Shown here: piece after piece, positions 40,206 to 64,000 of the stretch | Position numbering within the stretch: position 1 is the first letter of the stretch | Layout: each line of letters opens with the position of its first letter | Source of the DNA: Vogesella indigofera | GTDB lineage: Bacteria > Pseudomonadota > Gammaproteobacteria > Burkholderiales > Chromobacteriaceae | DNA length: 64,000 bases | Direction: 5' to 3' | Assembly: GCF_003633895.1 (NCBI RefSeq) | Contig: NZ_RBID01000011.1 | Coordinates: forward strand, 682,001-746,000 | Position numbers and translations under genes: made by a program | Notes under the pieces: generated by a model | The model's database searches: none | What the model saw: only the letters and a program-made list of their open reading frames with translations | What the model was told of the DNA's origin: nothing

Positions 40206-40211
40206 ATTGCC

Positions 40212-46435: not shown

Positions 46436-46475
46436 CAGAAAGTAGCCACGCAAGGTTGGCCGCAGCGCGTATCGC

Positions 46476-47111: not shown

Positions 47112-47138
47112 ATAACATTCATTTTCTATGAATGTTAT
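47112..47138. promoter_or_regulatory. NsrR operator 1
   Basis: Perfect palindrome ATAACATTCAT-TTTCT-ATGAATGTTAT, 11-bp arms. The half-site AACATTCATTT is close to the published NsrR half-site AAGATGCATTT. Confidence 0.75.
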
Positions 47139-47140
47139 CG

Positions 47141-47173
47141 GGTATAAGATTCATCTCAGACGAATCTTATACC
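47141..47173. promoter_or_regulatory. NsrR operator 2 / leader hairpin
   Basis: GGTATAAGATTC (47141-47152) and GAATCTTATACC (47162-47173) are exact complements with a nearly symmetrical nine-base centre. The half-site AAGATTCATCT also fits NsrR. It ends 18 bases before the norV start codon, so bound repressor would cover the transcription start, or the RNA could form a hairpin near the AAGGAG site. Confidence 0.7.
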
Positions 47174-47191
47174 CCCTCAAGGAGCACCACC

Positions 47192-48583: not shown

Positions 48584-48606
48584 ACAACCGTCCCCGGAGA
48601 TTCCTG

Positions 48607-49722
48607 ATGAAAAAACCCCTCGTCATCATCGGTAGCGGCCACGCCGGCTACACCCTGGCCCGGGCGTTCCGCCAGCTTGATACCAGCACCCCCGTCATCA
48701 TCCTGACCCAGGATGGCGGCGAGCAGTATCCCAAGCCACAGCTCAGCCACGGTTTCGGCCAGCAAATGGCGGCCGAGCAGCTGGTGCAGCAGCACGCCAC
48801 CGCCATCGCCGCCGAGCTGAAAATCATGGTGCGCCCCAATACCCTCGTCACCGCGATCGACTTCGACGCCAAACTCGTCCACGCCGGCGCGGTGCAGATC
48901 CCCTACAGCGACCTGGTGCTGGCGGTGGGCGCCGAGCCCTTCGTGCCGGCCATCCGTGGCGACGCGGCGCAGGACATCCTGACCCTGAACAACCTGGAGC
49001 AATACCGTCGCTATGTCGCGCAGCTCGAGCGCAGCGAGCGCGTGCTGGTCATCGGCGGCGGCCTGATCGGCACCGAGATCGCCCACGACATCGCCCGCCA
49101 CAAGCAGGTAACGCTGGTGGACATCGGCAGCCGGCTGCTGGAACGGCTGGTGCCCGAGGTGGTCAGCCAGCGCCTGCACCGTGCCATGGCGCCGGTGACG
49201 ATGCGTTTCGGCACCGCGGTGGACCGCATCGACCGCGCGGCGACGGGCTACCACGTGAAGCTCAGCAATGGCGAAATCCTTAACGTGGACGCCGTGATCT
49301 GCGCGGCGGGGCTGAAGCCGCGGCTGGAGCTGGCCGGCGGGCTGGCGACCGCACGCGGCATCAGCGTCGACCGCTACATGCGCACCTCGCAGCCCAATGT
49401 CTATGCGCTGGGCGACTGCGCCGAGATCGAGGGCCAGATCCTGCCCTACCTGCAGCCGATCACGCTGTCGGCGCGGGCACTGGCCAGCACCCTGGCCGGC
49501 ACGCCGCAGCCGGTGCGCTTCGGCCCGCTGCCGGTGGCGGTGAAAACGCCGCACTATCCGATCCAGCTGGCGGGCGTCACCCACGGGCCGGCGCTGGACT
49601 GGCAGATCAGCGAGGGCGACGACGGCCTTACCGCGCTGGCCCATCGCGACAGCAAGCTGGTCGGCTACGTGACCACCGGCAGCCGCAACGGCTTCAGCCT
49701 GCTACCTAGCCTGGCCGGCTGA
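48607..49722 (+). CDS. norW: NADH:flavorubredoxin reductase
   Basis: A 371-residue FAD-dependent oxidoreductase starting MKKPLVIIGSGHAGYTLARA (GGAGATTCCTG upstream). The FAD fold GSGHAGY, the NAD fold VLVIGGGLIGTE and the C-terminal FAD segment VYALGDCAEI are present. It passes electrons from NADH to the rubredoxin domain of NorV. It lies 23 bases behind norV in the same operon. Confidence 0.93.
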   Translation: MKKPLVIIGSGHAGYTLARAFRQLDTSTPVIILTQDGGEQYPKPQLSHGFGQQMAAEQLVQQHATAIAAELKIMVRPNTLVTAIDFDAKLVHAGAVQIPYSDLVLAVGAEPFVPAIRGDAAQDILTLNNLEQYRRYVAQLERSERVLVIGGGLIGTEIAHDIARHKQVTLVDIGSRLLERLVPEVVSQRLHRAMAPVTMRFGTAVDRIDRAATGYHVKLSNGEILNVDAVICAAGLKPRLELAGGLATARGISVDRYMRTSQPNVYALGDCAEIEGQILPYLQPITLSARALASTLAGTPQPVRFGPLPVAVKTPHYPIQLAGVTHGPALDWQISEGDDGLTALAHRDSKLVGYVTTGSRNGFSLLPSLAG

Positions 49723-49968
49723 ACCGGTCGCGCCGGAGCGGCCGGGGCAGACGGCGTGCCGGCCGGCGGCTGGCGTCCCGCCCCAGGCCAATATTGCCCC
49801 CCGGCAAAAGGTTGGCCGCAATGGCGCACCAGGCCGGCAGCTACTGTCTCGCTGCGCCCACCCGGCAGCCGGCACTGGCAAAAGCAGACTCATTCACTAA
49901 GATGCAAACACACCAGCTTCTGGTGACACGCTCCGCATTCCTCTCACCACCAGCAAGAGGTACGCAAT

Positions 49969-50745
49969 ATGAAGACACTGCAAGCATCCGCCAGACCGGC
50001 AACACCGGCCTGGCTGGCCGTCGTGGTGATGGCCGCCAGCCCGCTGCTGGCCAGCGCCGGCGACCTGTCCGCCACTTACCGCGGCAAGCCGGTGCCCTTC
50101 GGCCAGGGCCAGGCGCACACCGAAGTCCGCACCGACGCCGCCGGCAAGGCGGTCGCCGTCAGCATCGTGTTCAGTGAACAGGCGCTCGCCGGGCTGCCGG
50201 GCGCCGCCATGGCACCGGCCTACCTGCTGCGCATGCCGGCCAAGGGGCCGCGCACGGTAGTCGACCACGTGGTCATCAACTGGGAAGCCGTCGGCCACCC
50301 GCCACCCAAGGTCTACGACGTGCCGCATTTCGATTTCCACTTCTATCTGGTAAAACGGGCGGAGACGATGAAGGTGCATTTCAACAGCGACGCCGAATCG
50401 GCCGATCCGAGCCAGCAACCGCCGGCCGAGCTGCTGCCCGCCGGCTACATCTTGCCGCCGGGCACGGCCGTCCCGAAAATGGGCGTGCACGCCATCAACC
50501 CCCAGGCGGCGGAATTCCAGCAACCGCCGTTCACCGCCACGCTGATCTACGGCTACCACAACAAGAAGCAGACCTTCATCGAGCCGATGGTGTCACTGGC
50601 TTTTCTGCAGTCGAAGCCGGTATTTTCCGCACCGGTGGCGCGCCCGGCCCGCTACAGCAAGAGTGGCAGCTACCCCGCCGGCTATCGCGTGAGCTACCGC
50701 CCCGACAGCCAATCGTACGAGGTGGCACTGACCGAGCTTCAATGA
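49969..50745 (+). CDS. Secreted protein of the DUF5602/TTHB210-like type
   Basis: A 258-residue protein with a signal peptide (about 1-30, AWLAVVVMAASPLLASAGD). The mature part contains HVVINWEAVGHPPP, YDVPHFDFHFYLV and AELLPAGYIL. A histidine-rich HFDFHFY could bind a metal or haem. This pattern resembles TTHB210-like (DUF5602) proteins, whose function is not established. AAGAGG precedes the ATG. The family call is from memory of the motif and only moderately sure. Confidence 0.6.
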   Translation: MKTLQASARPATPAWLAVVVMAASPLLASAGDLSATYRGKPVPFGQGQAHTEVRTDAAGKAVAVSIVFSEQALAGLPGAAMAPAYLLRMPAKGPRTVVDHVVINWEAVGHPPPKVYDVPHFDFHFYLVKRAETMKVHFNSDAESADPSQQPPAELLPAGYILPPGTAVPKMGVHAINPQAAEFQQPPFTATLIYGYHNKKQTFIEPMVSLAFLQSKPVFSAPVARPARYSKSGSYPAGYRVSYRPDSQSYEVALTELQ

Positions 50746-50870
50746 CGGCGCCCCTGGCGGGCGGCGGACGACACCTGACGCGGCCAACCCTGGCCGCTTT
50801 TCTTCTGTCCGCCACTTGACGCCGCCCTGCCTGCTGCGGCACAAACAGCGCCTTGCTTGAGAGGCGACAG

Positions 50871-51395
50871 ATGAACCACCTGCAAACCATTTACCACCTG
50901 CAACCGACGCCGACTGCGCGGGTGCAGCAGCGGCTGGCGGTGCGCGGCATCGTGGCGCGCAGACGCGAGCTGTTGCTGCTGTATACCGGCCGCTACGACG
51001 ACTACAGCCTGCCGGGCGGCGGGGTGGAGGCAAACGAGGACCACGCGCTGGCGCTGGCGCGCGAGCTGGCGGAGGAAACCGGCGCCCGCGATGTCCGCAT
51101 CCTGCGCCCGTTTGGGTTGATCGACGAGTTCCGCCCGCCGCGTGGCGACTACGACGTGCTGCACATGCTGTCCTACTGCTATGTGTGCCGCATCGCAGCC
51201 ACGTTGGCCGCACCGCAAATGGAAGCCTACGAGATCAACAACCGCATGCAGCCGCGCTGGCTGGACGTGGACGCCGCCATTGCCCACAACCAGGCGGTGC
51301 TGGCGCGCGGCGCGGCCGGCATGGGGCTGTCTATCGTGCGCGAGACCGCGCTATTGCGGCGCATCGCCCAGGCGCTGGACGCCGGCGAGCTGTAA
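50871..51395 (+). CDS. Nudix hydrolase
   Basis: A 174-residue protein starting MNHLQTIYHLQPTPTARVQQ after GAGGCGAC. The Nudix box fits GX5EX7REUXEEXGU with G50, E56, R64-E65 and E68-E69. It hydrolyses a nucleoside diphosphate linked to another group; the substrate is not evident. The region before the box (VRGIVARRRELLLLYTGRYD) is the standard first strand. Monocistronic. Confidence 0.9.
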   Translation: MNHLQTIYHLQPTPTARVQQRLAVRGIVARRRELLLLYTGRYDDYSLPGGGVEANEDHALALARELAEETGARDVRILRPFGLIDEFRPPRGDYDVLHMLSYCYVCRIAATLAAPQMEAYEINNRMQPRWLDVDAAIAHNQAVLARGAAGMGLSIVRETALLRRIAQALDAGEL

Positions 51396-51534
51396 GTGCA
51401 CGGCTCGCAGCTCGCGCCGCACCGGGGTGCGCCCGCGTTGCCGGATTGAAGGGCCAATGGCAAGGTGGGCACGCAGCAACACGCCGCAACGGCCACTGCC
51501 TGCCCGCCTGCCATCGCCCATCGCACACGGTCGC

Positions 51535-52095
51535 TTAGTCCACCGGAATCATCAGGTGCTGGTAAGGCGTACCCGGCCACATCACGTACGGCACGCTGCT
51601 ATCCGGCGTGGCACTCTTGGGGTACATGTCATAGAACGCCGGCTCCGCGCCGACGATCATCACGTGCGGCCCGGTCTTGACCCAGTGGTTGCCGGCATCC
51701 GGCTTCGCCGCGTACGGGTCGGTATTGCTGGCATCGGTGCCCCCCGACAGCATGTACATGAAACCGATCTGGCCGGCGACCGGTGTCGTGTGGCCAATCC
51801 AGGCCATCGCCCACGCCATCGCCGCCTTGTCCATGCACATCGGGTCCGGGCCGGGGGTGGCCGGGTTGTCCGGCATGCAGGTGAAGCCGTTACTGCCCTG
51901 GCGCAGGGTGCGCATCTTGCCGTCGGCCTCCATGGCGACGATGGTCGCCGCGGCGCTGACCTTTTTCGGGGCGGCGCTCATCGCGCTCTTGATCATTTGG
52001 GTATCGCTGGCGGCCATCACCGCCGGCACCTGGCCGATGACGGCGAGCGCCATGGCGATGGTCAGACAACGGTGTGTCAAGGTCGATGTCGACAT
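51535..52095 (-). CDS. Secreted hypothetical protein
   Basis: A 186-residue protein starting MSTSTLTHRCLTIAMALAVI after AGGAG. The signal peptide probably ends at VMAAS. The mature protein carries GFTCMPDNP and DPMCMD, likely one disulfide, and a Met/Pro/Gly-rich C-terminus (MLSGGTDASNTDPYA, PGTPYQHLMIPVD). The pattern recurs in uncharacterised exported proteins of proteobacteria. No function is assigned. Confidence 0.65.
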   Translation of the reverse strand: MSTSTLTHRCLTIAMALAVIGQVPAVMAASDTQMIKSAMSAAPKKVSAAATIVAMEADGKMRTLRQGSNGFTCMPDNPATPGPDPMCMDKAAMAWAMAWIGHTTPVAGQIGFMYMLSGGTDASNTDPYAAKPDAGNHWVKTGPHVMIVGAEPAFYDMYPKSATPDSSVPYVMWPGTPYQHLMIPVD

Positions 52096-52520
52096 GATCA
52101 CTCCTTCTTGCAATGCAACGGGTGTCTACCCGGCTGCCGCAAGCGCTGCGGATGACACCTGGCGGGTGTGAACAAGACGGCAAGCTGTCGCCGTCACCCG
52201 CTGACAGCCGGGAGCGGGCAAACACAAGGCGCGGCAGCACAGCCGGTGTGCCCTAAGTGTAGGAGACGGCCCGGCAAGCGCAACCGGCGGCCGGCCCGCT
52301 ACGACGGACACGCTACCTGCCAGGCTTGGCGGCCAGCCCCCGCTACGCTGGCACAGCTGTTGCAGCGCGGCGCGGCGCGCGCACCGCCGTACCACATATG
52401 CAAATAGTATTATTTGATCCTGGCCAAAATGACGTTGATTAAGGCCATGCCCGCACAATGCCGATGCTATGCTAGATGGCTGTTTGCTTGCCCCAACCGC
52501 TTTGCCAGGAACCCCCGCAC
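52096..52520. other. Intergenic region ahead of the diguanylate cyclase
   Basis: About 425 bases between divergent genes. No gene is convincing on either strand. An AT-richer patch at 52395-52450 (ATATGCAAATAGTATTATTTGA) is the likely promoter zone of the cyclase gene. No hairpin terminator stands out. Confidence 0.45.
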
Positions 52521-53714
52521 GTGCACAGTCCCACGCTAGTCGCCATTGCCGCAATCCTCATGGTCGTGATGACCCTGATGCTGGCCGCTGCCTGGCGCTT
52601 CAACCCGCGCATCGCCGGGCTGGGCGCCTGGACGCTGTCCTATTTCTTCGGGCTGCTGGTCTGCGTCAACCTGCTGCTGCGCGCGGTGGCGCCGGAACTG
52701 CTGCTGGTGCTGCTGGCACAGCTGTCGGCCTACCTGATGGCGTGGCTGAACTGGGTGGGCACCCGTGCCTATGTCGGCGCCGCGCCGGTGCCACGACGCT
52801 ACGGCGTGCTGGGCGCCGTCTTGCTGCTGGCGACCGCGGCCTGGTTTACCGTGGTGCAGCCGGAGCAGACGACACGCTTCACGCTGATGAGCCTGGTGGT
52901 GGGCACGCTGTTCCTGCTGTGCGCGCGCACCATCGCCCAAGGCCGGCTGCAGGATCACCCGGCCCGCTACCTGTACGCGTTGGCCAGCGGCGGGCACGGG
53001 CTGTTCCTGCTGCTGCGCCCGTGGCTGTTCCGCGTCGACAACCACGGCCTGTTCGACGCGCAGCACGCCATCGCGGTATCGCACCTGGTGGTGGTGGAAT
53101 CCATCGTCGCCATCGTGCTGATGGCGTTCGGCATCGTGATGCTGGCCAACGAACAGGTGACGCTGGAATTGCGCCGCATCGCCGACCGCGACCCGCTGAC
53201 CGGCGTGTTCAACCGCCGCGCCTTCCTCGCCCTGCTGGACAAGGGCAGCCACTACGCCGAGCGCATGGCGTTTCCGCTGTCGGTACTGCTGGTCGATCTG
53301 GACCACTTCAAGAAGGTCAACGACAGCTGGGGCCACCAGCTCGGCGACCGCGCGCTGCGCCATTTCGTGACGGTGGCGCAAGCCTGCCTGCGCGATGGCG
53401 ACGTGATCGGCCGTCTCGGCGGCGAGGAATTTGCGATTTTCCTGCCTAACGCCCGGCTGGCACAGGCCGAAGCCATCGCCAGCCGCCTGCGCGGCGCACT
53501 GGAAATGCAGCCGCTGCGCCACGGCGAGGCCGCCATCGCGCTGACCGCCAGCATCGGCGTGGCGCAACGCCAGCCGCAGGAAGCGCCGCAAGCGCTGCTG
53601 CATCGCGCGGACGAGGCGATGTACCTGGCCAAGCACAAGGGCCGCAACCGCATCGAACTGGCGGCAAGCAGCCCGCCGCCAGCCGACAGTACAGCCGCGC
53701 CGGCACTGCCGTAA
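52521..53714 (+). CDS. Membrane-bound diguanylate cyclase (GGDEF)
   Basis: A 397-residue protein; GTG at 52521 has AGGA nine bases upstream, and an ATG at 52476 without a clear RBS would add 15 residues. About six hydrophobic segments make an N-terminal membrane sensor (residues 5-205). The GGDEF domain (about 225-380) starts DPLTGVFNRRAFLALLDKGS and has the active-site RLGGEEFAIF, so it should be catalytically competent and make c-di-GMP from GTP. No clear RxxD inhibitory site before GGEEF. Confidence 0.9.
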   Translation: MHSPTLVAIAAILMVVMTLMLAAAWRFNPRIAGLGAWTLSYFFGLLVCVNLLLRAVAPELLLVLLAQLSAYLMAWLNWVGTRAYVGAAPVPRRYGVLGAVLLLATAAWFTVVQPEQTTRFTLMSLVVGTLFLLCARTIAQGRLQDHPARYLYALASGGHGLFLLLRPWLFRVDNHGLFDAQHAIAVSHLVVVESIVAIVLMAFGIVMLANEQVTLELRRIADRDPLTGVFNRRAFLALLDKGSHYAERMAFPLSVLLVDLDHFKKVNDSWGHQLGDRALRHFVTVAQACLRDGDVIGRLGGEEFAIFLPNARLAQAEAIASRLRGALEMQPLRHGEAAIALTASIGVAQRQPQEAPQALLHRADEAMYLAKHKGRNRIELAASSPPPADSTAAPALP

Positions 53715-53728
53715 GCCGTTGCCGCCGC

Positions 53729-53745
53729 CGGCCAACGTTGGCCGC
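53729..53745. repeat. Palindrome of the AACGTTGGCCGC variant
   Basis: CGGCCAACGTTGGCCG (53729-53744), a self-complementary copy of the repeat word directly behind the cyclase gene. Confidence 0.85.
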
Positions 53746-53836
53746 AGCCGCCGCGGCGGAACCATAGCCGGCCGCCGCAGTCTGTGACACACCGGCGCCA
53801 AAGTGGTGGCCGGCACCATCAACAAGGAGAACAGCC

Positions 53837-54181
53837 ATGCATTGCCCGGTTTGCAAGGATACGACGCTGGTGATGAGCGAACGCCAGGGGATCGAGATCG
53901 ACTACTGTCCGCAGTGCCGCGGCGTGTGGCTGGATCGTGGCGAGCTGGACAAGATCATCCAGCATTCGCTGGGCAATATGGCCGCCGCCACTGCCGCGCC
54001 ACAAGCAGCGCAGCCGGTCGCAGCGCAGGCCGCCCAGCCCGGCTACCCGCCACGCCAGCCGCAGCAGCCCTATCAGCAACAACAGCCCCACCAGCAACCG
54101 CCTTACCCGCAGCACGACAAGTACGGTGACAACCGCCACTACAAGCGCAAGAAGAGCTTCTGGGAAGAACTGTTCGATTAA
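53837..54181 (+). CDS. TFIIB-type zinc-ribbon protein
   Basis: A 114-residue protein starting MHCPVCKDTTLVMSERQGIE after AAGGAG. Two CxxC pairs (CPVC at 3-6 and CPQC at 24-27) form a zf-TFIIB zinc ribbon with the family's GVWLDRGELDKI. A Gln/Pro/Ala-rich low-complexity linker (about 50-95) and a basic-aromatic tail (YKRKKSFWEELFD) follow. Function of this family is unknown. Confidence 0.85.
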   Translation: MHCPVCKDTTLVMSERQGIEIDYCPQCRGVWLDRGELDKIIQHSLGNMAAATAAPQAAQPVAAQAAQPGYPPRQPQQPYQQQQPHQQPPYPQHDKYGDNRHYKRKKSFWEELFD

Positions 54182-54202
54182 GCAGCGGCAACGGATAGCA
54201 CT

Positions 54203-54235
54203 GCGGCCAACCTTTGAAGGTTGGCCGCTTTGTTT
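54203..54235 (+). terminator. Terminator made of an inverted pair of the repeat word
   Basis: GCGGCCAACCTT-TG-AAGGTTGGCCGC followed by TTTGTTTTTG. The 12-bp perfect stem and U-rich tail make a good rho-independent terminator for the zinc-ribbon gene, composed entirely of two copies of the genomic repeat. Confidence 0.88.
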
Positions 54236-54291
54236 TTGCGCTTGCCAGTCGGCCGCCGCACACAGCCGCACACAGCCGAGCCAGCCCGGAC

Positions 54292-55404
54292 TCAGCCCGG
54301 CAACAGCCGCAACAGCTGGCCGTCGTCCTCGTCGGTGAGCAGGTAGATGAAGCCGTCCGGGCCTTCGCGCACGTCGCGCACGCGCTGGCCAAGGCCGGTG
54401 AGCAGCTTTTCTTCGCGCAGCACGCGCGTGCCGGCCAGCTCCAGCCGCAACAGGTAGCGGAATTTCAGCGAGCCGAGCAGCAGGCTGCCCTGCCACGCCC
54501 TGCCGTAGCGCGTGCCGCGCACGAAGGCCATGCCGGATGGCGCGATCGACGGCGTCCACTGCCACAGCGGCTGCTCCATGCCCGCCTTGCGGGCCATGCC
54601 GGCACCGACCGGGCCGCCGCCGTAGTTTTCACCGTAGGTGATCACAGGCCAGCCGTAGTTCTTGCCGGCCTCGGGGCGGTTCAGCTCGTCGCCGCCCTGC
54701 GGCCCGTGCTCGTGCGTCCACAGCCGGCCGTCCGGCCCCAGCGCGGCGCCCTGCACATTGCGGTGGCCAAGGCTCCAGATTTCCGGACGCGCGCCGGCAC
54801 GGCCGACGAAGGGATTGTCCGGCGGAATGCTGCCGTCCTTGCGCACGCGCACCACCTTGCCGTGGTGATTGTCCAGCGTCTGCGCGTCGGCCATGCGCTG
54901 GAAGCGGTCGCCCAGCGTCAGGAACAGCGTGCCGTCGGCGGCCTCGACAATGCGGCAGCCGAAGTGGGCGCGGCTGCTGAATTTCGGCTGCTGGCTGAAC
55001 AGCACCTTCACCTGCTCCAGGCGGCTGGCGTCGTCCGCCAGCCGGGCGCTGGCCAGCGCGGTGGAATTGCCGTAGCCGCTGGCGGCCGGCTCGGCGTAGC
55101 AGAAGTACAGCGTGCGGTTGCGGGCGAAGTCGCGGTCGGTAATCAGATCCAGCAGGCCGCCCTGCCCGGCGGCGTCGATGCGCGGCAGCCCGGCCAGCGG
55201 CTTGCCCAGCTGGCCGTTGGCGCTCACCAGCCGCAGGCGCCCGGGGCGCTCGGTAACCAGCATGCGCCCGCCATCAATGAAGGCCACCGCCCACGGGTGT
55301 TCCAGTCCACTGGCGACCAGCTCCGCCCGCGGTGCGGCCTGCGCCGGGCTGGCCAGCATCAGCAGCACCAGCGGCCACACTGGCCATCGTGTTTGCTTGT
55401 CCAT
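54292..55404 (-). CDS. PQQ-dependent aldose sugar dehydrogenase (YliI/Asd-like)
   Basis: A 370-residue periplasmic protein starting MDKQTRWPVWPLVLLMLASP, signal peptide cleaved near AQAA, strong GGAGGAG site. The six-bladed beta-propeller pattern is typical: GLEHPWAVAFIDGGRMLVTE, GGLLDLITDRDF, HFGCRIVEAADGTLFLTLGD, GHRNVQGAALGPDGRLWTHE, GPQGGDELNRPEAGKNYGWP. Oxidises aldoses with PQQ and calcium. It lies 34 bases behind kdpE on the same strand but is probably a separate function. Confidence 0.9.
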   Translation of the reverse strand: MDKQTRWPVWPLVLLMLASPAQAAPRAELVASGLEHPWAVAFIDGGRMLVTERPGRLRLVSANGQLGKPLAGLPRIDAAGQGGLLDLITDRDFARNRTLYFCYAEPAASGYGNSTALASARLADDASRLEQVKVLFSQQPKFSSRAHFGCRIVEAADGTLFLTLGDRFQRMADAQTLDNHHGKVVRVRKDGSIPPDNPFVGRAGARPEIWSLGHRNVQGAALGPDGRLWTHEHGPQGGDELNRPEAGKNYGWPVITYGENYGGGPVGAGMARKAGMEQPLWQWTPSIAPSGMAFVRGTRYGRAWQGSLLLGSLKFRYLLRLELAGTRVLREEKLLTGLGQRVRDVREGPDGFIYLLTDEDDGQLLRLLPG

Positions 55405-55438
55405 GCTTGTCTCCTCCACGCTGGCCGCGCGCCGCGCT

Positions 55439-56128
55439 CTACAGCAGGCGGTAGCCGACGCCGGTTTCGGTACGCAAAAAGCGCGGCTGCGCCGGATCGG
55501 CCTCCAGCTTTTGCCGCAGGTGTGCCATATAGATGCGCAGATAGTGGCTGTGTTCCACGTAACCCGGCCCCCACACCTCCTGCAGCAGCTGGCGGTGGGT
55601 CAGCACCTTGCCGCGATGGGCCAGCAGCGTGGCCAGCAGCCGGTATTCCAGCTGCGTCAGGTGCAGCGGCTCGCCGTCACGGCTGACGCTGCGGTTGGCC
55701 AGGTCCACCGTCACCGTATCGCCGAGGCGAACCAGGCTGCCGTTGCCCTCGCCGGCGTCCCCGCTGCGCCGCCGCTGCAGTGCACGCACCCGCGCCTGCA
55801 GCTCGCCGATGCCGAACGGCTTGGTCAGGTAGTCGTCGGCGCCGGCGTCCAGCGCCGCGATCTTGTCGACCTCATCGACACGCGCCGACAGCACGATCAC
55901 CGGCACCTTGCTCCAGCTGCGCAGATCCAGCAGCAGGCTGACACCGTCGCCATCGGGCAGACCGAGGTCCAGTACCAGCACGTCCGGCTTGCGGGTGCCG
56001 GCCTCGATCAGGCCGCGCGCCACGGTGTCGGCCTCGAACACGCGGTAGCCCTCGTCTTCCAGTGCGCTTCTGACGAAGCGGCGGATGGCGGCTTCGTCCT
56101 CGATGATCAGTGCCGTCAGGGCGTGCAT
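55439..56128 (-). CDS. kdpE: Response regulator KdpE
   Basis: A 229-residue OmpR-type regulator. The receiver domain has the acidic DE pair at 11-12 and phospho-acceptor D54 in LVLDLGLPDG, with LTKPF supplying the conserved Lys. The C-terminal winged helix ends GVGYRLL. It turns on kdpFABC when K+ is scarce. The start shares one base with the kdpD stop (TGATG). Confidence 0.95.
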   Translation of the reverse strand: MHALTALIIEDEAAIRRFVRSALEDEGYRVFEADTVARGLIEAGTRKPDVLVLDLGLPDGDGVSLLLDLRSWSKVPVIVLSARVDEVDKIAALDAGADDYLTKPFGIGELQARVRALQRRRSGDAGEGNGSLVRLGDTVTVDLANRSVSRDGEPLHLTQLEYRLLATLLAHRGKVLTHRQLLQEVWGPGYVEHSHYLRIYMAHLRQKLEADPAQPRFLRTETGVGYRLL

Positions 56129-58788
56129 CAGGGCAGGTTCTCCAGGTCAAAATCCAGTGCCGGCGGCGGACGCAGCGGCAGGGACAGGGTGAAACAGGCG
56201 CCGCCGTCGTGGCGGTTGGCCGCGCTCAGGCGCGCGCCGTGGACATCGGCAATGGTACGGCAAATCGCCAGCCCCAGCCCGACGCCGCTGATCGCCGACT
56301 CGCGCTCGCCCCGGCTGAAGGCGTCGAACAGCCGCGCCGGATCGCCCGGCGGCAGGCCGGGACCGCGATCGGCGACGCGCAGCAGGATGCGGCCGTCCTC
56401 GGCGGCGGCGCTGATGCGGATAGGGCTGCCGGCCGGGCTGTACTTGGCCGCGTTCTCCAGCAGGTTGACCAGCAGCCGCTCCAGCAGGATGGCGTCGCCG
56501 TACAGCATCGGGCAGGCCGGATCGATGTCCAGCTGCAGCGGGTGTGCGTCCAGCGTGTTGCCCAGCGCCGCGATGGCGGTGCCGATCACCTCGTCCGCCG
56601 GCAGCCAGTCCTGGTGCAGGGTGACGCCGCCCGCCTGCAGCCGCGCCATTTCCAGCAAATTGGTCACCAGCCGCGTGATGCGCTGCGACTGCGCCAACAG
56701 CAGCGCCGCCTGTTCCTGCTCGGCGCGCCCGCCGCGCTGCAGGGCCAGCAGCAGGGTCTCGGCGTTGCCGGACAGCGCGGTCAGCGGCGTGCGCAGGTCG
56801 TGCGACAGCGCCGCCAGCAGCGAGTGGCGCAGCCGTTCCGATTCCATCGACAGCAGCGTCTGCTGCGCCACTTCAATATAGTGCAGCCGCTCCAGCGTCT
56901 GCGCCGCCAGCGCCGCCACCGCCTCGCACAGGCGACGGTTGTCGGGGTCGGCCAGCGCCAGCACGTCTGGCACCGCCACCACCAGCACGCCGCGGGTGCG
57001 CATCGGCGCCTGCAGCGGCAGGTAGAGCTGCGCTGCATCCGGCAGCGTGTGCGTGCCCTGCCCGGCCGCCTGCTGGTGGTCGAAGCACCAGCGCACCAGC
57101 GCCGCGTCCACCGCCAGCGGCGTGTCCGGCAGCGCCTCCAGCTGTTCCTCCGCGTCCGGCAGCCACAGGCTGATCTGCGCGTTCAGGCTGGCCTGCAGGA
57201 AGCGGCCGGTGATCTCGCCAACCTGCTCCGGCATGAGCGCGCTGCCCAGCTCGCGCGCCATCTCGTACAGGTAGCGGGTGTGCGCCTCGCGCTGGCCGGC
57301 CTGCGCCGCCGACTGCCGCTGGCTGGCCACCAGCTGGCCGGCGACCAGCCCCACGGTCAGCATCACGGCGAAGGTGATCAGGTACTGGATGTCCGACACC
57401 GCGAACGACCAGTGCGGCGCGACAAAGAAGAAATCGAACAGCGCCACAGACAGCACCGCCGCCCACGCCGCCGGCGCGCGGCCGTAGCGCACCGCCGCCA
57501 GCAGCACCAGCAGCAGGTACAGCATCACCAGGTTGGCCGCATCCAGTACGCCGCGCAGCGGCAGCATGGCCGCGGTGAGCGCGAGGCTGGCCAGCGTAGT
57601 TTGCCACCAGCCGCCACCGCCACCGGCACCCGCGCGCGGCCAGCGCCAGCCGGCCGTGGCGGCGGGTCTGCGCTCGCCGGCGGCCAGGATCAGGCAGTTC
57701 AGCTCCGGCGCGCGTTGTGCCAGCTGCTGCTGCAGGCTGGCGCGCCAGAACCAGCGCGGCCGGTTGCCGCGCTGGCTCAGCGCCAGCAGCGACAGGTTGT
57801 GGCGCCGCGCGTAGTCGGCGATCAGGCTGGCCGGTGCCGGCCCGGCCAGCACCAGCGTGTGCGCGCCCTGCTCCGCCGCCTGTGCCAGCGCCGCCAGCAC
57901 GCTACTGCGCGCCGCCGCGCCGGCGTGGCCGCGATCGACCCACACCGCGTGCCATGGCGCCGACAGCGCGCGCGCCAGCCGCGCCGCCTGGCGCACCGCG
58001 CTGTCTTCGTCGCCGTGGCCCAGCACCAGCAGCACGCCCAGCGAGGTCGCCCACACCGGTGCGCGGCTTTGCACCTCGCGCTGCGCGCGCATCTGGCCGT
58101 CGACGCGGTCGGCCAGCCGGCGCAGCGCCAGCTCGCGCAGTGCGATCAGGTTGCCCTTGCGGAAAAAATGGCCGGCGGCGCGTTCCGCCACTTCCGGCAG
58201 GTACACCTTGCCGGCGGCCAGGCGCAGCAGCAGGTCGTCCGGCGGCAGGTCCACCAGCCGCACTTCGCTGGCGCGGTCGAACACGTGGTCCGGCACCGTC
58301 TCCGCCACCGCCACGCCGGTCACGCCGCTGACCACGTCGTTGAGGCTGTCCAGATGCTGCACGTTCATCGCGCTGTACACGTCGATGCCGGCCGCCAGCA
58401 GCTCGTCCACGTCTTGCCAGCGCTTGGGATGGCGGCTGCCGGGTGCGTTGCTGTGCGGCAGCTCGTCGACCACCACCAGCGCCGGCCGCCGCGCCAGCAC
58501 CGCGTCGATATCGAACTCCGCCACCTGCTTGCCGCGGTAGGCGATCTGCTTGCGCGGCAGCACGTCCAGCCCGGCCAGCAGCGCCTCGGTCTCGGCGCGG
58601 CCGTGGGTATCGACCCAGCCCACCACCACGTCCAGCCCGGCGGCGCGCTTTTCCTGCGCCTCGGCCAGCATGGCGTAGGTCTTACCCACCCCCGGCGCGG
58701 CACCGAAGAACAGCTTCAGCTTGCCGCGCGGCGCCGGCAGCGCCGCCAGCAGCGCGTCCGGATCGGGCCGCAAATCGTCATCCATCAT
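56128..58788 (-). CDS. kdpD: Sensor histidine kinase KdpD
   Basis: An 886-residue kinase (E. coli 894). The N-terminal KdpD domain has the Walker A GAAPGVGKT near residues 29-37, then VVVGWVDTHGR. A Usp-like domain (about 250-375), four close membrane helices (about 395-500), a GAF-like region, the H-box ALSHDLRTPLTAL and ATPase motifs (LLENAAKYSP, VADRGPGLPPGD, GVGLGLAICR) follow. It senses low K+/turgor and phosphorylates KdpE. It lies 115 bases behind kdpC. Confidence 0.95.
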   Translation of the reverse strand: MMDDDLRPDPDALLAALPAPRGKLKLFFGAAPGVGKTYAMLAEAQEKRAAGLDVVVGWVDTHGRAETEALLAGLDVLPRKQIAYRGKQVAEFDIDAVLARRPALVVVDELPHSNAPGSRHPKRWQDVDELLAAGIDVYSAMNVQHLDSLNDVVSGVTGVAVAETVPDHVFDRASEVRLVDLPPDDLLLRLAAGKVYLPEVAERAAGHFFRKGNLIALRELALRRLADRVDGQMRAQREVQSRAPVWATSLGVLLVLGHGDEDSAVRQAARLARALSAPWHAVWVDRGHAGAAARSSVLAALAQAAEQGAHTLVLAGPAPASLIADYARRHNLSLLALSQRGNRPRWFWRASLQQQLAQRAPELNCLILAAGERRPAATAGWRWPRAGAGGGGGWWQTTLASLALTAAMLPLRGVLDAANLVMLYLLLVLLAAVRYGRAPAAWAAVLSVALFDFFFVAPHWSFAVSDIQYLITFAVMLTVGLVAGQLVASQRQSAAQAGQREAHTRYLYEMARELGSALMPEQVGEITGRFLQASLNAQISLWLPDAEEQLEALPDTPLAVDAALVRWCFDHQQAAGQGTHTLPDAAQLYLPLQAPMRTRGVLVVAVPDVLALADPDNRRLCEAVAALAAQTLERLHYIEVAQQTLLSMESERLRHSLLAALSHDLRTPLTALSGNAETLLLALQRGGRAEQEQAALLLAQSQRITRLVTNLLEMARLQAGGVTLHQDWLPADEVIGTAIAALGNTLDAHPLQLDIDPACPMLYGDAILLERLLVNLLENAAKYSPAGSPIRISAAAEDGRILLRVADRGPGLPPGDPARLFDAFSRGERESAISGVGLGLAICRTIADVHGARLSAANRHDGGACFTLSLPLRPPPALDFDLENLP

Positions 58789-58807
58789 TCATTGCTCCAG
58801 CGTGCCG

Positions 58808-58840
58808 CAAGGTTGGCCGCAATCGTTGCGGCCAACCTTG
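58808..58840. repeat. 15-bp perfect hairpin of the repeat word between kdpC and kdpD
   Basis: CAAGGTTGGCCGCAA (58808-58822), TCG loop, TTGCGGCCAACCTTG (58826-58840). With no U-run on the transcribed minus strand it is more likely an RNA processing or attenuation hairpin that separates kdpFABC from kdpDE than a strong terminator. Confidence 0.85.
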
Positions 58841-58903
58841 TGGCGGTCAAGAGGGTTGCGACCGCCGGGGCGGCGGCCGCGATCAAACAAGTGTTAACCG
58901 GCC

Positions 58904-59530
58904 CTAGCCCGCCGCCAGCCGGCGCAGCGCCAGATTCAGCTGTAGCACATTGACGCGCGCCTGCTGCGCGCTGCCGAACCAGCCCTGCTCGCGCTGCGCG
59001 GCGATCAGGGCCTCGACCTGCGCCAGCGGCCGTTTCAGCTCGCGCGCCACGCGCGGTGCCTGATAGTGGGCTGCCGCCAGGCTGATGTGCGGGTCCAGCC
59101 CGCTGCCCGAGGTGGTGACCAGGTCCAGCGGCACCGGGCCGTGCTGCCCGGGGTGGGCGGCGCGCAGCGCGGCGATGCGCGCGGCGACCGCCTGTTGCAG
59201 CGCCGGATTGCCCGGCCCCTGGTTGCTGCCGCCGGAGGCGCCGCCGTTGTAGGCGTTACCGGCGGTGGCCGACGGCCGGCTCCAGAATTCGCCGCGGCCG
59301 TGGAAGGCCTGGCCGATCAGCGCCGAGCCGATCACCTTGCCGTTTGTGTCGCGCAGCAGCGAGCCGTTGGCCTGCGCCGGCAGCAGCAGCTGCGCGAGGC
59401 CGGTGACCGCCAGCGGATAGAGCAGCCCCAGCAACAGGGTGAAAAACAAGAGCAGGGTCAGCGCCGGACGCAGCACTGCCGCGCGCGGTAGCGTGACGGC
59501 GGCTGCGGGATGATAAGTCGTGGTGGCCAT
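58904..59530 (-). CDS. kdpC: K+-transporting ATPase subunit KdpC
   Basis: A 208-residue KdpC with one N-terminal membrane helix (about 20-50, LRPALTLLLFFTLLLGLLYP) and the conserved soluble part (GSALIGQAFHGRGEFWSRPS, ASGGSNQGPGNPAL, VTTSGSGLDPHISLAAAHYQ). It stabilises the KdpFABC complex. It lies 54 bases behind kdpB. Confidence 0.95.
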   Translation of the reverse strand: MATTTYHPAAAVTLPRAAVLRPALTLLLFFTLLLGLLYPLAVTGLAQLLLPAQANGSLLRDTNGKVIGSALIGQAFHGRGEFWSRPSATAGNAYNGGASGGSNQGPGNPALQQAVAARIAALRAAHPGQHGPVPLDLVTTSGSGLDPHISLAAAHYQAPRVARELKRPLAQVEALIAAQREQGWFGSAQQARVNVLQLNLALRRLAAG

Positions 59531-59584
59531 AATGGCACTCCTTGGTTACGGCTGCCGGGCGTTGTTGACCGCCCGGCAGCGGGG

Positions 59585-61714
59585 TCAGACCAGTCCCAGC
59601 AGGGACAGCAGCATGTCGATCAGCTTGATGCCGGCAAACGGCAGCAACAGCCCGCCGACGCCGTACAGCAGCAGGTTGCGGCGCAGCAGCTCGGCCGCCC
59701 CCAGCGCGCGGTAGCGCACGCCCTTCAGCGCCAGCGGGATCAGCGCGATGATGATCAGCGCGTTGAAGATCACCGCCGACAGCAGCGCCGAGGCCGGACT
59801 GGCCAGCTGCATCACGTTCAACGCGTTCAGCTGCGGATAGGTGACGGCAAACGCGGCCGGGATGATGGCGAAGTACTTGGCCACGTCGTTGGCCAGGCTG
59901 AAGGTGGTCAGCGCGCCGCGCGTCATCAGCATCTGCTTGCCGATCTCCACCACCTCGATCAGCTTGGTGGGGCTGGAGTCGAGGTCCACCATATTGGCCG
60001 CCTCGCGCGCCGCCTGGGTGCCGCTGTTCATCGCCACCGCCACGTCGGCCTGCGCCAGCGCCGGCGCGTCGTTGGTGCCGTCGCCGGTCATCGCCACCAG
60101 CTGGCCACGCGCCTGGTAGTCGCGGATCATCGCCAGCTTGTTTTCCGGCGTCGCCTCGGCCAGGAAGTCGTCCACCCCGGCCTCGGCGGCGATGGCGGCG
60201 GCGGTCAGGCGGTTGTCGCCGGTGATCATCACCGTCTTGATGCCCATCTGCCGCAGCTGGGCAAAGCGTTCGCGGATGCCGGGCTTCACCACGTCCTTCA
60301 GCTCGACCACGCCCAGCACCTGCGCGCCCTCGGCCACCACCAGCGGCGTGCTGCCACGGCTGGCGATGGTGTCGACCTGTTGCAGCAGGCTGCGCGGCAC
60401 GCTGCCGCCCAGCGCCTCGACATGGCGGCGGATCGCATCGGCGGCGCCCTTGCGGATGTGACGGCCGTCGAGGTTGATACCGGACATGCGCGTTTGCGCG
60501 GTGAACGGCACGAAGCTGGCGCCGGCCGGGGTCAGCCCGGCGTGCAGGTCGGCCAGCAGCTTGCGGCCAACCTTGGCGTCATCGAGATGCCCGCCGGCGC
60601 CGTCGGTCAGCCGCTGCGCCAGCACCACGATGCTCTTGCCTTCCGGGGTGTCGTCGGCCAGCGACGCCAGCCACGCCGCCTCGGCAAGCGTCGCCTGGCT
60701 CACGCCGGCGGCGGCGACAAAGGCGGACGCCTGGCGGTTGCCGAAGGTGATGGTGCCGGTCTTATCCAAGAGCAGCACGTCGACGTCGCCGGCGGCCTCC
60801 ACCGCGCGGCCGGAGGTGGCGATCACGTTGGCCGCCATCAGCCGGCTCATGCCGGCGACGCCGATGGCCGACAGCAGGCCGCCGATGGTGGTCGGGATCA
60901 GGCACACCAAGAGCGCGATCAGCACCGGCAGCGACACCACTTCGCCGCTACCGGCCGCGTTCACGCTGTAGGCGGAAAACGGCAGCAGGGTGACCGTCAC
61001 CAACAAAAAGATCAGCGTCAGCGCCAGGAGCAGGATGGTCAGCGCGACCTCGTTCGGCGTCTTGCGGCGCTTGGCGCCCTCCACCATCGCGATCATGCGG
61101 TCGATGAAGGTCTCGCCGGGGTTGACGCTGATGCGCACCACGATCCAGTCCGACAGCACGCGGGTGCCGCCGGTGACTGAGCTGAAATCGCCGCCGGATT
61201 CGCGGATCACCGGCGCCGATTCGCCGGTAATCGCCGACTCGTCCACGCTGGCGATGCCCTCGATCACCTCGCCGTCGCACGGGATCACGTCGCCGTGCTG
61301 CACCAGCACTACGTCGTCACGGCGCAGGTCAAACGACTCCACCATGGCGAATTCGGCGCCGTAACGCTGCGGTGCGGCCAGCTTTTTCGCCCACGTCGAC
61401 TTCTGCAGCCCTTTCAGGCTGGCCGCCTGCGCCTTGCTGCGGCCCTCGGCCAGCGCCTCGGCAAAGTTGGCGAACAGCACGGTGAACCACAGCCACACCG
61501 CGATGCTGCCGGTCAGCCACGCCGGCGCCTGGCCGTGGCCCAGCAGCGCCTGCACCCACAGCACGCTGCACAGGATGCTGCCCAGGTAGACCACGAACAT
61601 CACCGGGTTTTTCAGCTGCGCACGCAGCCCGAGCTTGTGAAAGGTGTCGCGCAGCGCCGGGCGCAGCAGTGCGCCGTCCAGCAGCGGCAAGACCATTTTT
61701 TTATGATGGGACAT
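59585..61714 (-). CDS. kdpB: K+-transporting ATPase catalytic subunit KdpB
   Basis: A 709-residue P-type ATPase. The phosphorylated Asp lies in [14 protein letters not shown], the A-domain motif is [18 protein letters not shown], and the hinge is [20 protein letters not shown]. It couples ATP hydrolysis to K+ import with KdpA. AGGAG precedes the start; it begins nine bases after the kdpA stop. Confidence 0.97.
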
Positions 61715-61723
61715 ATTGTTCTC

Positions 61724-63415
61724 CTAGTGGGTCGCCCAGATCGCCAGATGCTCGACCACCGGCCCCAGCGCCAGCGCCGGCAGGTAGGTCAGCGCGCCGA
61801 CCAGCAGCACGCTGCCGATCAAGAGGCCGATGAACAGCCCGTCGTGGGTCGGCATCGAGCCCAGGGTCGGCGACAGCCGTTTTTTCGCCGCCAGCGAGCC
61901 GGCCAGTGCCAGCACCGGCACGATCACCGCGAAGCGGCCCAGCCACATCGCGATGCCCAGCATGGCGTTATAGAACGGGGTATTGGCCGACAGCCCGGCG
62001 AAGGCGCTGCCATTGTTGTTGGCCGCCGACGAAAACGCGTACAGCACCTCGGAAAAACCGTGCGCGCCCGGATTGGCGAGGCCAGCCAGCCCCGGTGCCA
62101 CCACCACCGCCACGGCGGTACCGGCCAGCACCAGCAACGGGGTGACCAGGATGGTCAGCGCCACCATTTTCATGTCGAACGGTTCGATCTTCTTGCCCAG
62201 GTATTCCGGGGTGCGGCCAACCATCAGCCCGGCGACGAACACCGCCAGCACCGCGAACACCAGCATGCCGTACAGGCCGGAGCCGACACCGCCGAACACC
62301 ACCTCGCCCAGCTGCATCAGCAGCATCGGCACCATGCCACCCAGCGCGGTGAACGAATCGTGCATCGCGTTGACCGCGCCGCAGCTGGCGGCGGTAGTGA
62401 CGGCGGCAAACAGGCTGCTGCCGGCAATGCCGAAGCGCATGTCCTTGCCTTCCAGGTTGCCGCTGCCGCCGTCGGCGCCCAGTGCGCTCAGCAGCGGGTT
62501 GCCCTGCGCCTCGAACCAGGCGATGGCGCTGGCGGCGACGACGAACAGCACGCTCATCGCGATGTAGATCGCCCAGCCCTGGCGGCGATCACCAACCACG
62601 CGGCCGAAGGCATGGCACAGCCCGGCCGGGATCAGGAAGATGGCCAGCATCTGCAGCAGGTTGGACAGTTCGCTCGGGTTCTCGAACGGATGCGCGGAGT
62701 TGGCGTTGAAGAAGCCGCCACCGTTGGTGCCCAGCAGCTTGATCGCCTCTTGCGACGCCACCGGCCCCATTGCCAGCGTCTGCCCGTGGCCGGCCAGCGC
62801 CTCGAAGCCGAGGTAGCCGGACAGGTTCTGCAGCACGCCCTGGCTGACCAGCAGCAACGCCAGCACGATGGACAGCGGCAGCAGCAGGTACAGCGTGATG
62901 CGCAGCACGTCGGCCCAGAAATTGCCGATGTCGCCGCTCTCGCGCCGCGCAAAGCCGCGCATCAGCGCAAACGCCACCGCGATGCCGGTGGCCGCGGACA
63001 GGAAGTTCTGTACCGCGAGGCCGGCCATCTGCGTCAGGTAGCTCATGGTCGTTTCGCCGGCATAGCCCTGCCAGTTGGTATTGGCGACAAAGCTCACCGC
63101 GGTGTTGAATGCCGAACCGGCCTCCACCGCACCCAGCTGCTGCGGGTTGAACGGCAGCGCACCCTGCAGCCGCTGCAGGCCGTACAGCAACACGGCGCCC
63201 AGCACATTGAACGCCAGCAGCGCCAGCGTGTAGTCGCGCCAGCCCATGCCGGCATCGTTCAGCCCCAGGCGGCGCAGCAAGGCGGCGTCAAACGCCTGCC
63301 AGCGACTCGGCAAGCTGCCGCTGGCCAGCGGCGCCAGCCAGGCACCCATCGGCCGCACGCTCAGCGTCAGCAGCAGCATGAACAGCGCCAGCAACCAGAA
63401 AAAAGCGGTCATCAT
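61724..63415 (-). CDS. kdpA: K+-transporting ATPase channel subunit KdpA
   Basis: A 563-residue KdpA starting with two Met (63415 or 63412) after GGAGGAG; the frame extends upstream to 63532 but that part belongs to kdpF and the peptide before it. Four selectivity-filter-like loops are present, for example [19 protein letters not shown] and [19 protein letters not shown]. It binds and conducts K+. Its start shares a base with the kdpF stop. Confidence 0.96.
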
Positions 63416-63504
63416 CACATCTCCTCCGCATGCAGCAGCGCGTACAGCAGCCACACCGCCAACAGCAGCGCCACCAGCGCGCACAAACTTGATAGCACGC
63501 TCAT
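63415..63504 (-). CDS. kdpF: K+-transporting ATPase small subunit KdpF
   Basis: A 29-residue peptide, [20 protein letters not shown] followed by YALLHAEEM, one membrane helix ending in the Y-A-L-L/I-x-A-E motif of KdpF. It stabilises KdpFABC. The stop overlaps the kdpA start by one base and its start overlaps the preceding peptide's stop by four. Confidence 0.9.
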
Positions 63505-63602
63505 CGCGCCACCCCCTGCGACGTGGTCGCATACAGCCGCAGCAGGCCGAGCACTGCCAGATACAGTGCGGCCAACCCTGCCAGCCAGATCAGGTCTTGC
63601 AT
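63501..63602 (-). CDS. 33-residue single-TM peptide upstream of kdpF
   Basis: ATG complementary to 63600-63602, with GGGGAATG just before it, begins [20 protein letters not shown] and continues [13 protein letters not shown]. One membrane helix with a short polar tail, like KdpF but different in sequence. Its stop overlaps the kdpF start (ATGA), a strong sign of coupled translation. It could be a second small Kdp subunit, a regulator, or a translated leader. I do not recognise it as a named family. Confidence 0.65.
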
Positions 63603-63878
63603 CACATTCCCCTTGTTGGTCACAGACACTGCCACTGTAGGTTTTGCGGTGCAAAAAAGCGGTTAAAAGGCCGGGCGGCGGTATAAACGGGATATAAAAA
63701 TATGATGCTTTTGGCGTAGCCGGCGGGATGAAGGGGGGAGTGGCGGTCGGAACAAGGCGCGATCCGGCCGCAGTGCATCTCGGCCGGATCGGTCCGCATT
63801 CTGGCGTAGCCAGCCAGTGGCAAGCACCATGACCGGGTGGACAATGGCGGCATTCGTCAGCCAGCACAGGAGAGCAAC
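63603..63878. promoter_or_regulatory. Divergent promoter region of kdp with KdpE-box candidate
   Basis: About 276 bases between divergent genes. On the minus strand CATATTTTTATATC (63704-63691) resembles the T-rich KdpE site of E. coli (CATTTTTATAC...), 90 bases upstream of the first small gene, followed by GTTTATACC as a possible -10 region. GC-rich spacer with a CGGCCGGATC/GATCCGGCCG inverted pair near 63770-63790 lies further right. Confidence 0.45.
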
Positions 63879-64000
63879 ATGAACACGCAGCACATCCGCC
63901 CCGCCGGTTTCACCGCCGAGCGCGCCTGGGGGGCGCGCACCATCGCCTGCATGAACGGCATCAGTACCCGCCTGCACTGGACCGACCAGCCCTACCGCTG
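63879..64000 (+). CDS. Partial protein, probable cupin-domain family (3' end outside window)
   Basis: The start ATG follows AGGAGAGCAAC. The visible 40 codons read MNTQHIRPAGFTAERAWGAR then TIACMNGISTRLHWTDQPYR. MNGISTRLHWTDQPYRW-like openings occur in small cupin proteins, where a metal-binding double-stranded beta helix follows. With only the N-terminus present the assignment is tentative. It is divergent from kdp. Confidence 0.4.
   Translation, partial: MNTQHIRPAGFTAERAWGARTIACMNGISTRLHWTDQPYR

Follow-up and report, generated by a model that had tools for sequence, protein, structure and literature searches.

In 64,000 nucleotides (nt) of the genome of Vogesella indigofera (the whole stretch is called the window below), short repeats stand as inverted pairs behind one gene after another, which raises the question of what these repeats are and why they are paired at the ends of genes. 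This DNA comes from a contig of 799,755 bp in a 3.62-Mb genome, and its kdpD is 95-97% identical to the kdpD of Vogesella margarita, V. fluminis and V. alkaliphila; the genus belongs to the family Chromobacteriaceae, which NCBI taxonomy places in the order Neisseriales. The paired repeats proved to be inverted copies of one word with the consensus cAAsGTTGGCCGCAa. An earlier note on this DNA had likened the word to the uptake words of Neisseria and Haemophilus, and this likeness is borne out in that the word is uptake-sequence-like and its pairs stand behind stop codons; the note did not go on to the genus-specific spellings and dialects of the word, which are the chief result here. Our analysis makes it highly probable that cAAsGTTGGCCGCAa is the uptake word of Vogesella, bound by a ComP-type pilin and existing as dialects in related genera. 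On the converging genomic evidence that suggests this role, the pairs are a by-product and a secondary use of an uptake-type word.

The word and its dialects

The 9-base core of the word occurs 46 times in the window, on both strands, against 2.2 (standard deviation 1.5) over 100 shuffles, and the longer form AAGGTTGGCCGC occurs 20 times against 0.04 expected under a third-order model. Genome-wide, the longer form is found 535 + 515 times by strand in the 3.62 Mb and its backward-read control 0 times, while the contig has a core density of 0.65 per kb, its 518 words being divided into 261 on the plus and 257 on the minus strand. The DNA uptake sequences (DUS) of Neisseriaceae likewise reach copy numbers from the hundreds into the thousands and use both strands. 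The equal counts on both strands here rule out a site of the Chi or KOPS type, these being strand-biased. When 240 core copies from 400 kb were aligned, the consensus extended over about 15 bp with sharp edges and no tail signal; written out with the ending proper to Vogesella, the word takes the form CAAGGTTGGCCGCAA.

The words of related genera share a common core, GTTGGCCG, and end in CA, AA or AG according to genus. This is seen from counts of GTTGGCCGCA, GTTGGCCGAA and GTTGGCCGAG over the whole genomes of a family set of 61. GTTGGCCGCA is present in 1,871-2,895 copies in all 13 Vogesella genomes and in at most 58 in the remaining 48; GTTGGCCGAG, with the AG ending, in 1,940 and 1,590 copies in the two genomes of genus g5 and in at most 165 elsewhere in the family; and GTTGGCCGAA in 183-2,168 copies in eight genomes of g2, g6, g7, g9 and g10 (579 in G036, 2,168 in G037, 1,245 in G038, 1,851 in G045, 1,104 in G046, 183 in G047, 893 in G048, and 1,368 in G010, the sole word-bearer among ten g2 genomes) and in at most 78 elsewhere. 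An unguided word search in 20-40 kb from one genome of each of nine other family genera returned the same core with a different ending in four of them (g5, g7, g9 and g10); whole-genome counts confirmed these four and added g6 and one g2 genome. A word is thus carried by 23 of the 61 genomes, and the 38 word-less ones are 19 of 19 in g3, 4 of 4 in g4, 6 of 6 in g8 and 9 of 10 in g2. In another member of the Chromobacteriaceae, Gulbenkiania mobilis, there are 658 + 646 copies of GTTGGCCGMR, counts equal to those of G038, and 14 copies of GTTGGCCGAA in its 22.7-kb locus. A weak excess of GTTGGCCGAG was seen in G040 and G043 (g8) and in G036 (g6), with 92, 85 and 165 copies against 21, 17 and 23 for the backward control, and may represent decaying relics of an older word.

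With the tree of ComP-like pilins (see below) as the reference, the dialects track phylogeny: all 13 Vogesella genomes share CA, both g5 genomes share AG, and the dialect labels need 5 changes on the tree, where the minimum possible is 3 and the shuffled mean is 20.4. The 5' side of the word varies even inside Vogesella, since AAGGTTGGCCGC makes up 0.50-0.51 of the GTTGGCCGCA copies in five genomes and 0.22-0.27 in eight; in the ComP tree of the genus the same two groups form separate branches, that of the eight with weak support (80/25). Beyond the family, we examined an order sample of 399 genomes, 386 of them from other families, with the limits of the order set by the search tool. GTTGGCCGMR is found 1,304-3,107 times in the 8 word-bearing family members of this sample, and none of the 386 has more than 223 copies; most have a count similar to that of the backward control. 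No excess was found in Chitinilyticum aquatile, Collimonas or Undibacterium, and a Paludibacterium metagenome-assembled genome has 223 copies against 123 for the control.

Words can also be missing from a stretch of the Vogesella genome itself. The longest word-free stretch, 26.2 kb (contig C1, 367342-393542), has a GC content of 0.552 against 0.634, with a chance probability of about 2e-5, and among seven of its proteins searched against Pfam three match transposase/integrase families (DDE_Tnp_1, rve and Mu-transpos_C) and one matches TniB. For a possible scarcity in recently acquired DNA this island is a single case, the next gaps, of 11.2 and 10.2 kb, being within chance. The island also encodes a protein of 2,551 aa that combines a Toprim domain with a zinc finger of the DnaG type, and it contains a 1,684-codon frame.

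Genus-specific words with a common core would also fit a chromosome-organising, replication or methylation site, whose dialects would then track a coevolving DNA-binding protein other than a pilin. We regard such a site as improbable: both strands are used equally, the words are absent from the transposon island, and restriction sites usually tend towards avoidance and are seldom strongly enriched. Moreover, the placement of the pairs is of the kind reported for pairs of DUS and of the uptake signal sequences (USS) of Pasteurellaceae (PMC1852404).

A ComP-like pilin in the word-bearing genomes

The Vogesella genome has ten prepilin-like matches, nine of them above the family cut-off, and it encodes a minor pilin with a prepilin signal and a globular domain homologous to ComP (Table 1). 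In a single-sequence search of the Protein Data Bank, PilE stood at the top through the shared N-terminal helix and the ComP entry 2NBA came fifth, so the profile search was limited to globular domains, namely those of this pilin and of 25 relatives (26 family members). With this profile the ComP entries come first (2NBA 2.3e-21, 2M3K 3.2e-20 and 5HZ7 4.1e-19), and the next pilin follows at 3.3e-8. NCBIfam returned the generic prepilin domain only, with six other models below their cut-offs. Two C-terminal cysteines are invariant in the 26 aligned homologues.

A ComP-like minor pilin is present in all 23 word-bearing genomes. In the segment before the WP.LP motif, a lysine (as YK or FK) is found in 21 of the 23 word-bearing and in 0 of 25 word-less proteins (48 of the 61 genomes compared, by a Fisher test that ignores kinship), and the solved ComP entries carry the same lysine. 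The 13 genomes outside the ComP comparison are all word-less and include G042 as well as G033, the latter with best matches that look like other pilins. Its position in the alignment would put this segment before WP.LP in the loop that connects the helix to the first strand; nuclear magnetic resonance has implicated parts of this loop in DUS binding (PMC12061091). Two side observations concern individual pilins. The ComP of G010 branches beside eight word-less g2 ComP proteins and has an NTDAG stretch that those eight lack, and G045 has two ComP-like pilin genes side by side (G045:C3:1518675-1519600), the second of which, on a long branch, entered the comparison. ComEC, which is needed for transformation, was matched in 59 of the 61 family genomes, that of V. 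indigofera included.

Inverted pairs behind genes and the origin of the words

On the contig, whose genes were called by our own script, 50 close inverted pairs (32 of the form <- -> and 18 of the form -> <-) stand against 2 close same-strand pairs, whereas words placed at random, the intergenic share being kept, would form each of the four pair kinds about 5 times (some 10 inverted and 10 same-strand pairs). Overlap of two words in a palindrome, seen in 14 pairs, accounts for part of the excess of <- -> over -> <-. Intergenic DNA holds 42 of the 50 inverted pairs, 21 in convergent, 20 in tandem and 1 in divergent position, which in relation to gaps of at least 25 nt amounts to 21/94, 20/289 and 1/105; the single intergenic words are distributed otherwise, with 19 convergent, 56 tandem and 14 divergent (chi-square p 0.001). 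Of 41 pairs that have a stop codon upstream, 38 are no more than 67 nt away from it. As to the other dialects, examined in small samples, the 40 kb from each of g5, g9 and g10 contained one close inverted pair, and g6 and g7 had none.

Runs of U (T in the DNA) are commoner behind paired words than behind single ones. Five or more T in the ten bases behind the GC core occur in 29 of 62 directions for paired and in 5 of 94 for single words, and the difference holds for each orientation (13/38 and 16/24 against 0/55 and 5/39, p about 1e-5 each). Counted strictly behind the full stem, which omits T-tracts lying in the stem, 13 of 41 pairs have four or more T in eight bases in at least one gene direction (11 convergent and 2 tandem); by direction the share is 27%, compared with 14% for background positions following stop codons and 10% when tandem pairs are read on the antisense strand. 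Tandem pairs mostly come without a U-run (2 of 20 with four or more T), and several convergent pairs have A- and T-tracts inside the stem, as in bidirectional terminators. Given the excess of U-runs behind paired words, a subset of the pairs, terminator-like in sequence, looks like intrinsic terminators; in the window this is clear only for 54203-54228.

All seven repeat sites that the earlier note had listed were recovered (Table 1), and while it had placed nearly all of them just behind stop codons, all seven do lie behind one, at 6-162 nt. Six are full word pairs; the seventh, 53729-53744, is half a pair, because its opposite strand has 8 of the 9 core bases. As to the pairs described as perfect, the word is right for 31018-31043, 36249-36274 and 53729-53744, whereas 54203-54228 and 58808-58840 have a short unpaired centre. 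The U-run noticed at 54203-54228 is found directly behind the repeat, and the hairpin and U-run expected of a Rho-independent terminator are combined there, weakly at 40177-40205, and not at 58808-58840, 31018-31043, 31766-31788 or 36249-36274; the first is likely to be the intrinsic terminator of the plus-strand zinc-ribbon gene, as predicted from its sequence. The idea that the pairs act as terminators as in Neisseria and Haemophilus therefore survives in the placement behind stops and in the U-run excess, and has to be given up for most pairs, which are no classical terminators (13 of 41). Rfam gave no RNA family at any pair, and elsewhere in the window only a tRNA and a C4 antisense RNA (12673-12757, 74.5 bits). 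The C4 match falls on the beginning of an ORF6N/BRO-type gene (12618-13730 +), behind which comes a Fic-family gene (13900-15156 +), an arrangement that suggests regulation of the phage type.

Table 1. Repeat sites and single words of the window, and the gene of the ComP-like pilin
Position	Feature	Self-complementary	U-run behind	Nt from stop	Genes	Relatives with the pair
1..64000, both strands	core GTTGGCCGC, 46 copies					
31018..31043	perfect 26-bp palindrome, pair (-> <-)	26/26	none	42	ribonucleotide reductase large-chain gene (28123-30975 +) / 215-aa open reading frame (31079-31726 +)	4 of 4 comparable
31766..31788	imperfect pair (<- ->)	20/23	none	39	215-aa open reading frame / ribonucleotide reductase small-chain gene (31828-32907 +)	3 of 4 comparable, single word in the fourth
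36249..36274	perfect palindrome, two overlapping words, core GCGGCCAACGTTGGCCGC	26/26	none	162	behind glutathione S-transferase-like gene	outside the comparison
40177..40205	imperfect pair (<- ->)	26/29	at most 3 T in 8	6	short convergent gap, nitroreductase-family gene (39517-40170 +) / SbcC-like gene (40212-43649 -)	outside the comparison
53729..53744	16-bp palindrome, full core word 53737-53745 (+) and 8/9 core bases on the other strand	16/16		14 (stop at 53714)	behind GGDEF gene	
54203..54228	inverted pair (<- ->), 12-bp perfect arms, 2-base centre	24/26	TTTGTTTTT on + strand	21	convergent gap, zinc-ribbon gene (53837-54181 +) / glucose/sorbosone dehydrogenase gene (54292-55404 -)	4 of 4 comparable
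56215..56223 (+)	single core word, core identical in 3/3 named relatives				in kdpD	
57532..57540 (+)	single core word AGGTTGGCCGCA, identical in 3/3 named relatives				in kdpD	
58808..58840	inverted pair (-> <-), 15-bp arms, 3-base loop	30/33	none	63	kdpC (58904-59530 -) / kdpD (56128-58788 -)	4 of 4 comparable
60563..60571 (-)	single word CAAGGTTGGCCGCA, identical in 3/3 named relatives				upstream in kdp region	
G000:C11:94160-94585	ComP-like minor pilin, 142 aa, profile search of globular domain					

The earlier note had also proposed comparing the positions across related genomes, and intergenic placement turned out to be conserved: the pair is kept in 18 of 19 comparisons with relatives and one word of it in the remaining one. 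A lack of conserved placement, which the note had named among the grounds for refutation, is thus not what is seen. These comparisons cover 7 of the 42 intergenic pairs of the contig; any two cores on opposite strands that lay between the flanking genes and no more than 45 nt apart were taken as a pair, and in two comparisons the gap exceeds 600 nt, which leaves room for a pair at a different position. The four relatives that keep the pair between kdpC and kdpD are V. margarita, V. fluminis, V. alkaliphila and G052, and no pair was found upstream of kdpD in Gulbenkiania, Paludibacterium or Chitinilyticum. There is no T among the 8 bases behind the kdpC-kdpD pair and no U-run in this genome or in the four relatives, so it is unlikely to set the ratio of kdpFABC to kdpDE, as had been suggested, by intrinsic termination; it may still affect RNA processing. 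The centre of its hairpin, read towards kdpD, is CGAT here and in G052 and ATCG in V. margarita, V. fluminis and V. alkaliphila, the two being reverse complements, as if the stem-loop had been inverted.

A similar arrangement is seen at the genes for the large and small chains of ribonucleotide reductase (28123-32907), which are split by a 215-aa open reading frame without a Pfam match; a word pair stands on each side of this frame, both pairs lack a U-run and both are kept by most comparable relatives. The kdp and ribonucleotide reductase pairs probably lie between genes that form operons. Pairs thus also persist at places where no termination is to be expected; read most simply, they are kept there as uptake words and may or may not affect RNA ends.

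Position behind stops with avoidance of divergent gaps (21/94 convergent, 20/289 tandem and 1/105 divergent), U-run enrichment behind paired words, and placement kept in 18 of 19 comparisons would all suit a word that is first of all a transcription signal, i.e., a GC-rich arm repeated for terminators or 3'-end hairpins with no role in uptake. However, 418 of the 518 contig words lie outside close inverted pairs, 329 of these 418 within called genes, and U-runs are rare behind single words (5/94); even among the pairs, 28 of 41 have fewer than four T in the eight bases behind the stem, T-tracts internal to the stem being uncounted. A terminator, moreover, needs a stem and no fixed 15-bp sequence with genus-specific endings. 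We therefore consider an origin as a transcription signal quite improbable.

As for where the words come from, 174 of the 518 lie between genes, though intergenic DNA makes up 11.4% of the sequence, and 344 lie inside called genes. Alignment with relatives, in which a site has one count for each relative and paralogous alignments may be included, gave 121 shared words and 93 specific to one side, after 19 sites with flanks aligned at less than 60% had been dropped (8 in our genome, 11 in the relatives); G049, G050 and G060 of the 13 relatives gave no usable site. For 79 of the 93 lineage-specific words the alignment has no gap and the difference consists of substitutions (one base in 30 cases, two in 19, three in 18 and four or more in 12), and hence the words mostly appear and vanish in place, as expected of words arising by point mutation. 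A mobile family like repetitive extragenic palindromes (REP) or miniature inverted-repeat transposable elements (MITE), spread by insertion, would share with the word its shortness, its occasional inverted pairs and its enrichment between genes, yet the gap-free empty sites reject it for most words, no clean insertion is found among the 14 gapped alignments, 344 words sit in genes and the sharp edges come without flanking consensus, which leaves it hardly any probability.

Proposed mechanism and comparison with known uptake systems

We infer from this genomic evidence a scheme in which recognition by ComP, biased uptake and termination in vivo would be connected as follows. A ComP-type minor pilin, part of the type IV pilus, would bind word-carrying DNA on the outside of the cell, and such DNA would enter in preference to other DNA, giving transformation a bias towards DNA of the same kind. 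Through biased uptake together with recombination, words that arise by point mutation would be retained and would thereby spread without insertion, and in related genera the receptor and the word would have diverged together, giving dialects with the core GTTGGCCG and the endings CA, AA and AG. With many copies on both strands, neighbouring inverted copies would be common in the permissive DNA behind stop codons, and an inverted pair followed by a U-run could serve as an intrinsic terminator, in some cases for both converging genes.

Several observations weigh against an uptake word read by ComP. We found no uptake or binding experiment on the word. Neither the consensus nor GTTGGCCGCA, GTTGGCCGAA, GTTGGCCGAG or their complements contain the CTG core; CTG is common to all Neisseriaceae DUS dialects of GCCGTCTGAA, and the words found here have neither CTG nor CAG. 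ComP-like homologues are also encoded by word-less genomes (25 word-less proteins), and ComEC is also present in 10 of 14 control genomes, Escherichia coli among them, so neither predicts the word; nor was ComEC matched in two word-bearing Vogesella genomes, G057 (330 contigs) and G058 (88% complete), perhaps owing to assembly gaps. The lysine has exceptions among the word-bearers in G010 (T) and G045 (R), and the contrast rests on few lineages, the ComP tree needing 5 changes of dialect label. Regarding the origin in place, the alignment has a gap for 14 of the 93 lineage-specific words, in no case a clean word-length insertion, and among the 79 words without a gap there are 12 with four or more differences over the nine bases. 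Some genomes of other families exceed the backward control for GTTGGCCGMR two- to fourfold (139 against 31 in G288, 208 against 71 in G209), so a mild composition effect exists. Finally, the ComP homologue of V. indigofera has 2 cysteines, while ComP of Neisseriaceae has two disulfide bridges (beta1-DD loop and beta4-beta5; PMC12061091). With only the C-terminal cysteine pair kept, the DNA-binding face of the Vogesella protein probably differs from that of Neisseria.

In the portions of the literature used here, abundant uptake words are described for two families, Neisseriaceae and Pasteurellaceae. Among the matches listed, some judged by their title or the start of the abstract, none describes such a word for Vogesella or any other genus of the Chromobacteriaceae; this does not extend to the over-represented 10-mers that table S1D of PMC3630211 gives for five genomes of this kind. 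That survey, of 2013, saw no obvious DUS when it examined five genomes from the neighbourhood of Chromobacterium, obtained no BLAST match for ComP in Chromobacterium violaceum, and dated the rise of DUS-based transformation to after the split from this species (PMC3630211). By contrast, we find a word and ComP-like pilins in Chromobacteriaceae; the five genomes of the survey may or may not be among the word-less ones. We are inclined to think that ComP self-recognition predates the split of Neisseriaceae and Chromobacteriaceae, one receptor family reading two unrelated cores, the CTG-type DUS and GTTGGCCG, each with dialects and terminator pairs, with the word completely rewritten in between and lost from several lineages of the Chromobacteriaceae. 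The GTTGGCCG word may instead have had an independent origin, on a ComP that was already old. If the uptake role is true, the second dialect set would let one follow, as in a natural experiment, how a change in the pilin alters the DNA word it reads, with ComP-like pilins in both word-bearing and word-less relatives and one residue contrast to test first, and barriers to gene exchange become testable in environmental bacteria.

The comparison with the known systems, limited to what the cited portions of the sources contain, places the word beside them without making it a member of either. Against DUS, the differences are the unrelated core GTTGGCCG without CTG, the ComP homologue with 2 cysteines, and a word that is known here from genomes alone. 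CTG is conserved in all DUS dialects of Neisseriaceae (PMC3630211), so that our word, which by its genomic traits appears to work like a DUS, falls outside the DUS dialects as defined. Against the USS of Pasteurellaceae, the word itself is another, it has no A/T-rich extended tail, and the receptor predicted for USS is PpdA/ComN (PMC1852404, PMC12616744). In the arrangement of pairs, <- -> (32) exceeds -> <- (18) here, whereas +- is preferred in the terminators of PMC1852404, whose tails use the word's own A/T bases. There are also likenesses. As in Neisseriaceae, a short word is present in hundreds to thousands of copies on both strands, its dialects vary with genus or clade, inverted pairs stand behind stops in the manner of terminators, and the genome encodes a ComP-like minor pilin (PMC3630211, PMC12061091); as in Pasteurellaceae, there is an abundant self word, with inverted pairs as terminators and variants between species (PMC1852404, PMC12616744). 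In N. meningitidis Z2491, hairpins were counted in 94 of 268 tail-to-tail, 124 of 1,413 tail-to-head and 10 of 270 head-to-head regions (PMC1852404), and the same enrichment between converging genes is found here (21/94, 20/289 and 1/105), with spacing limits that differ between the two counts. The pattern of pairs in Vogesella thus resembles that of Neisseria and Pasteurellaceae (PMC1852404, PMC3630211).

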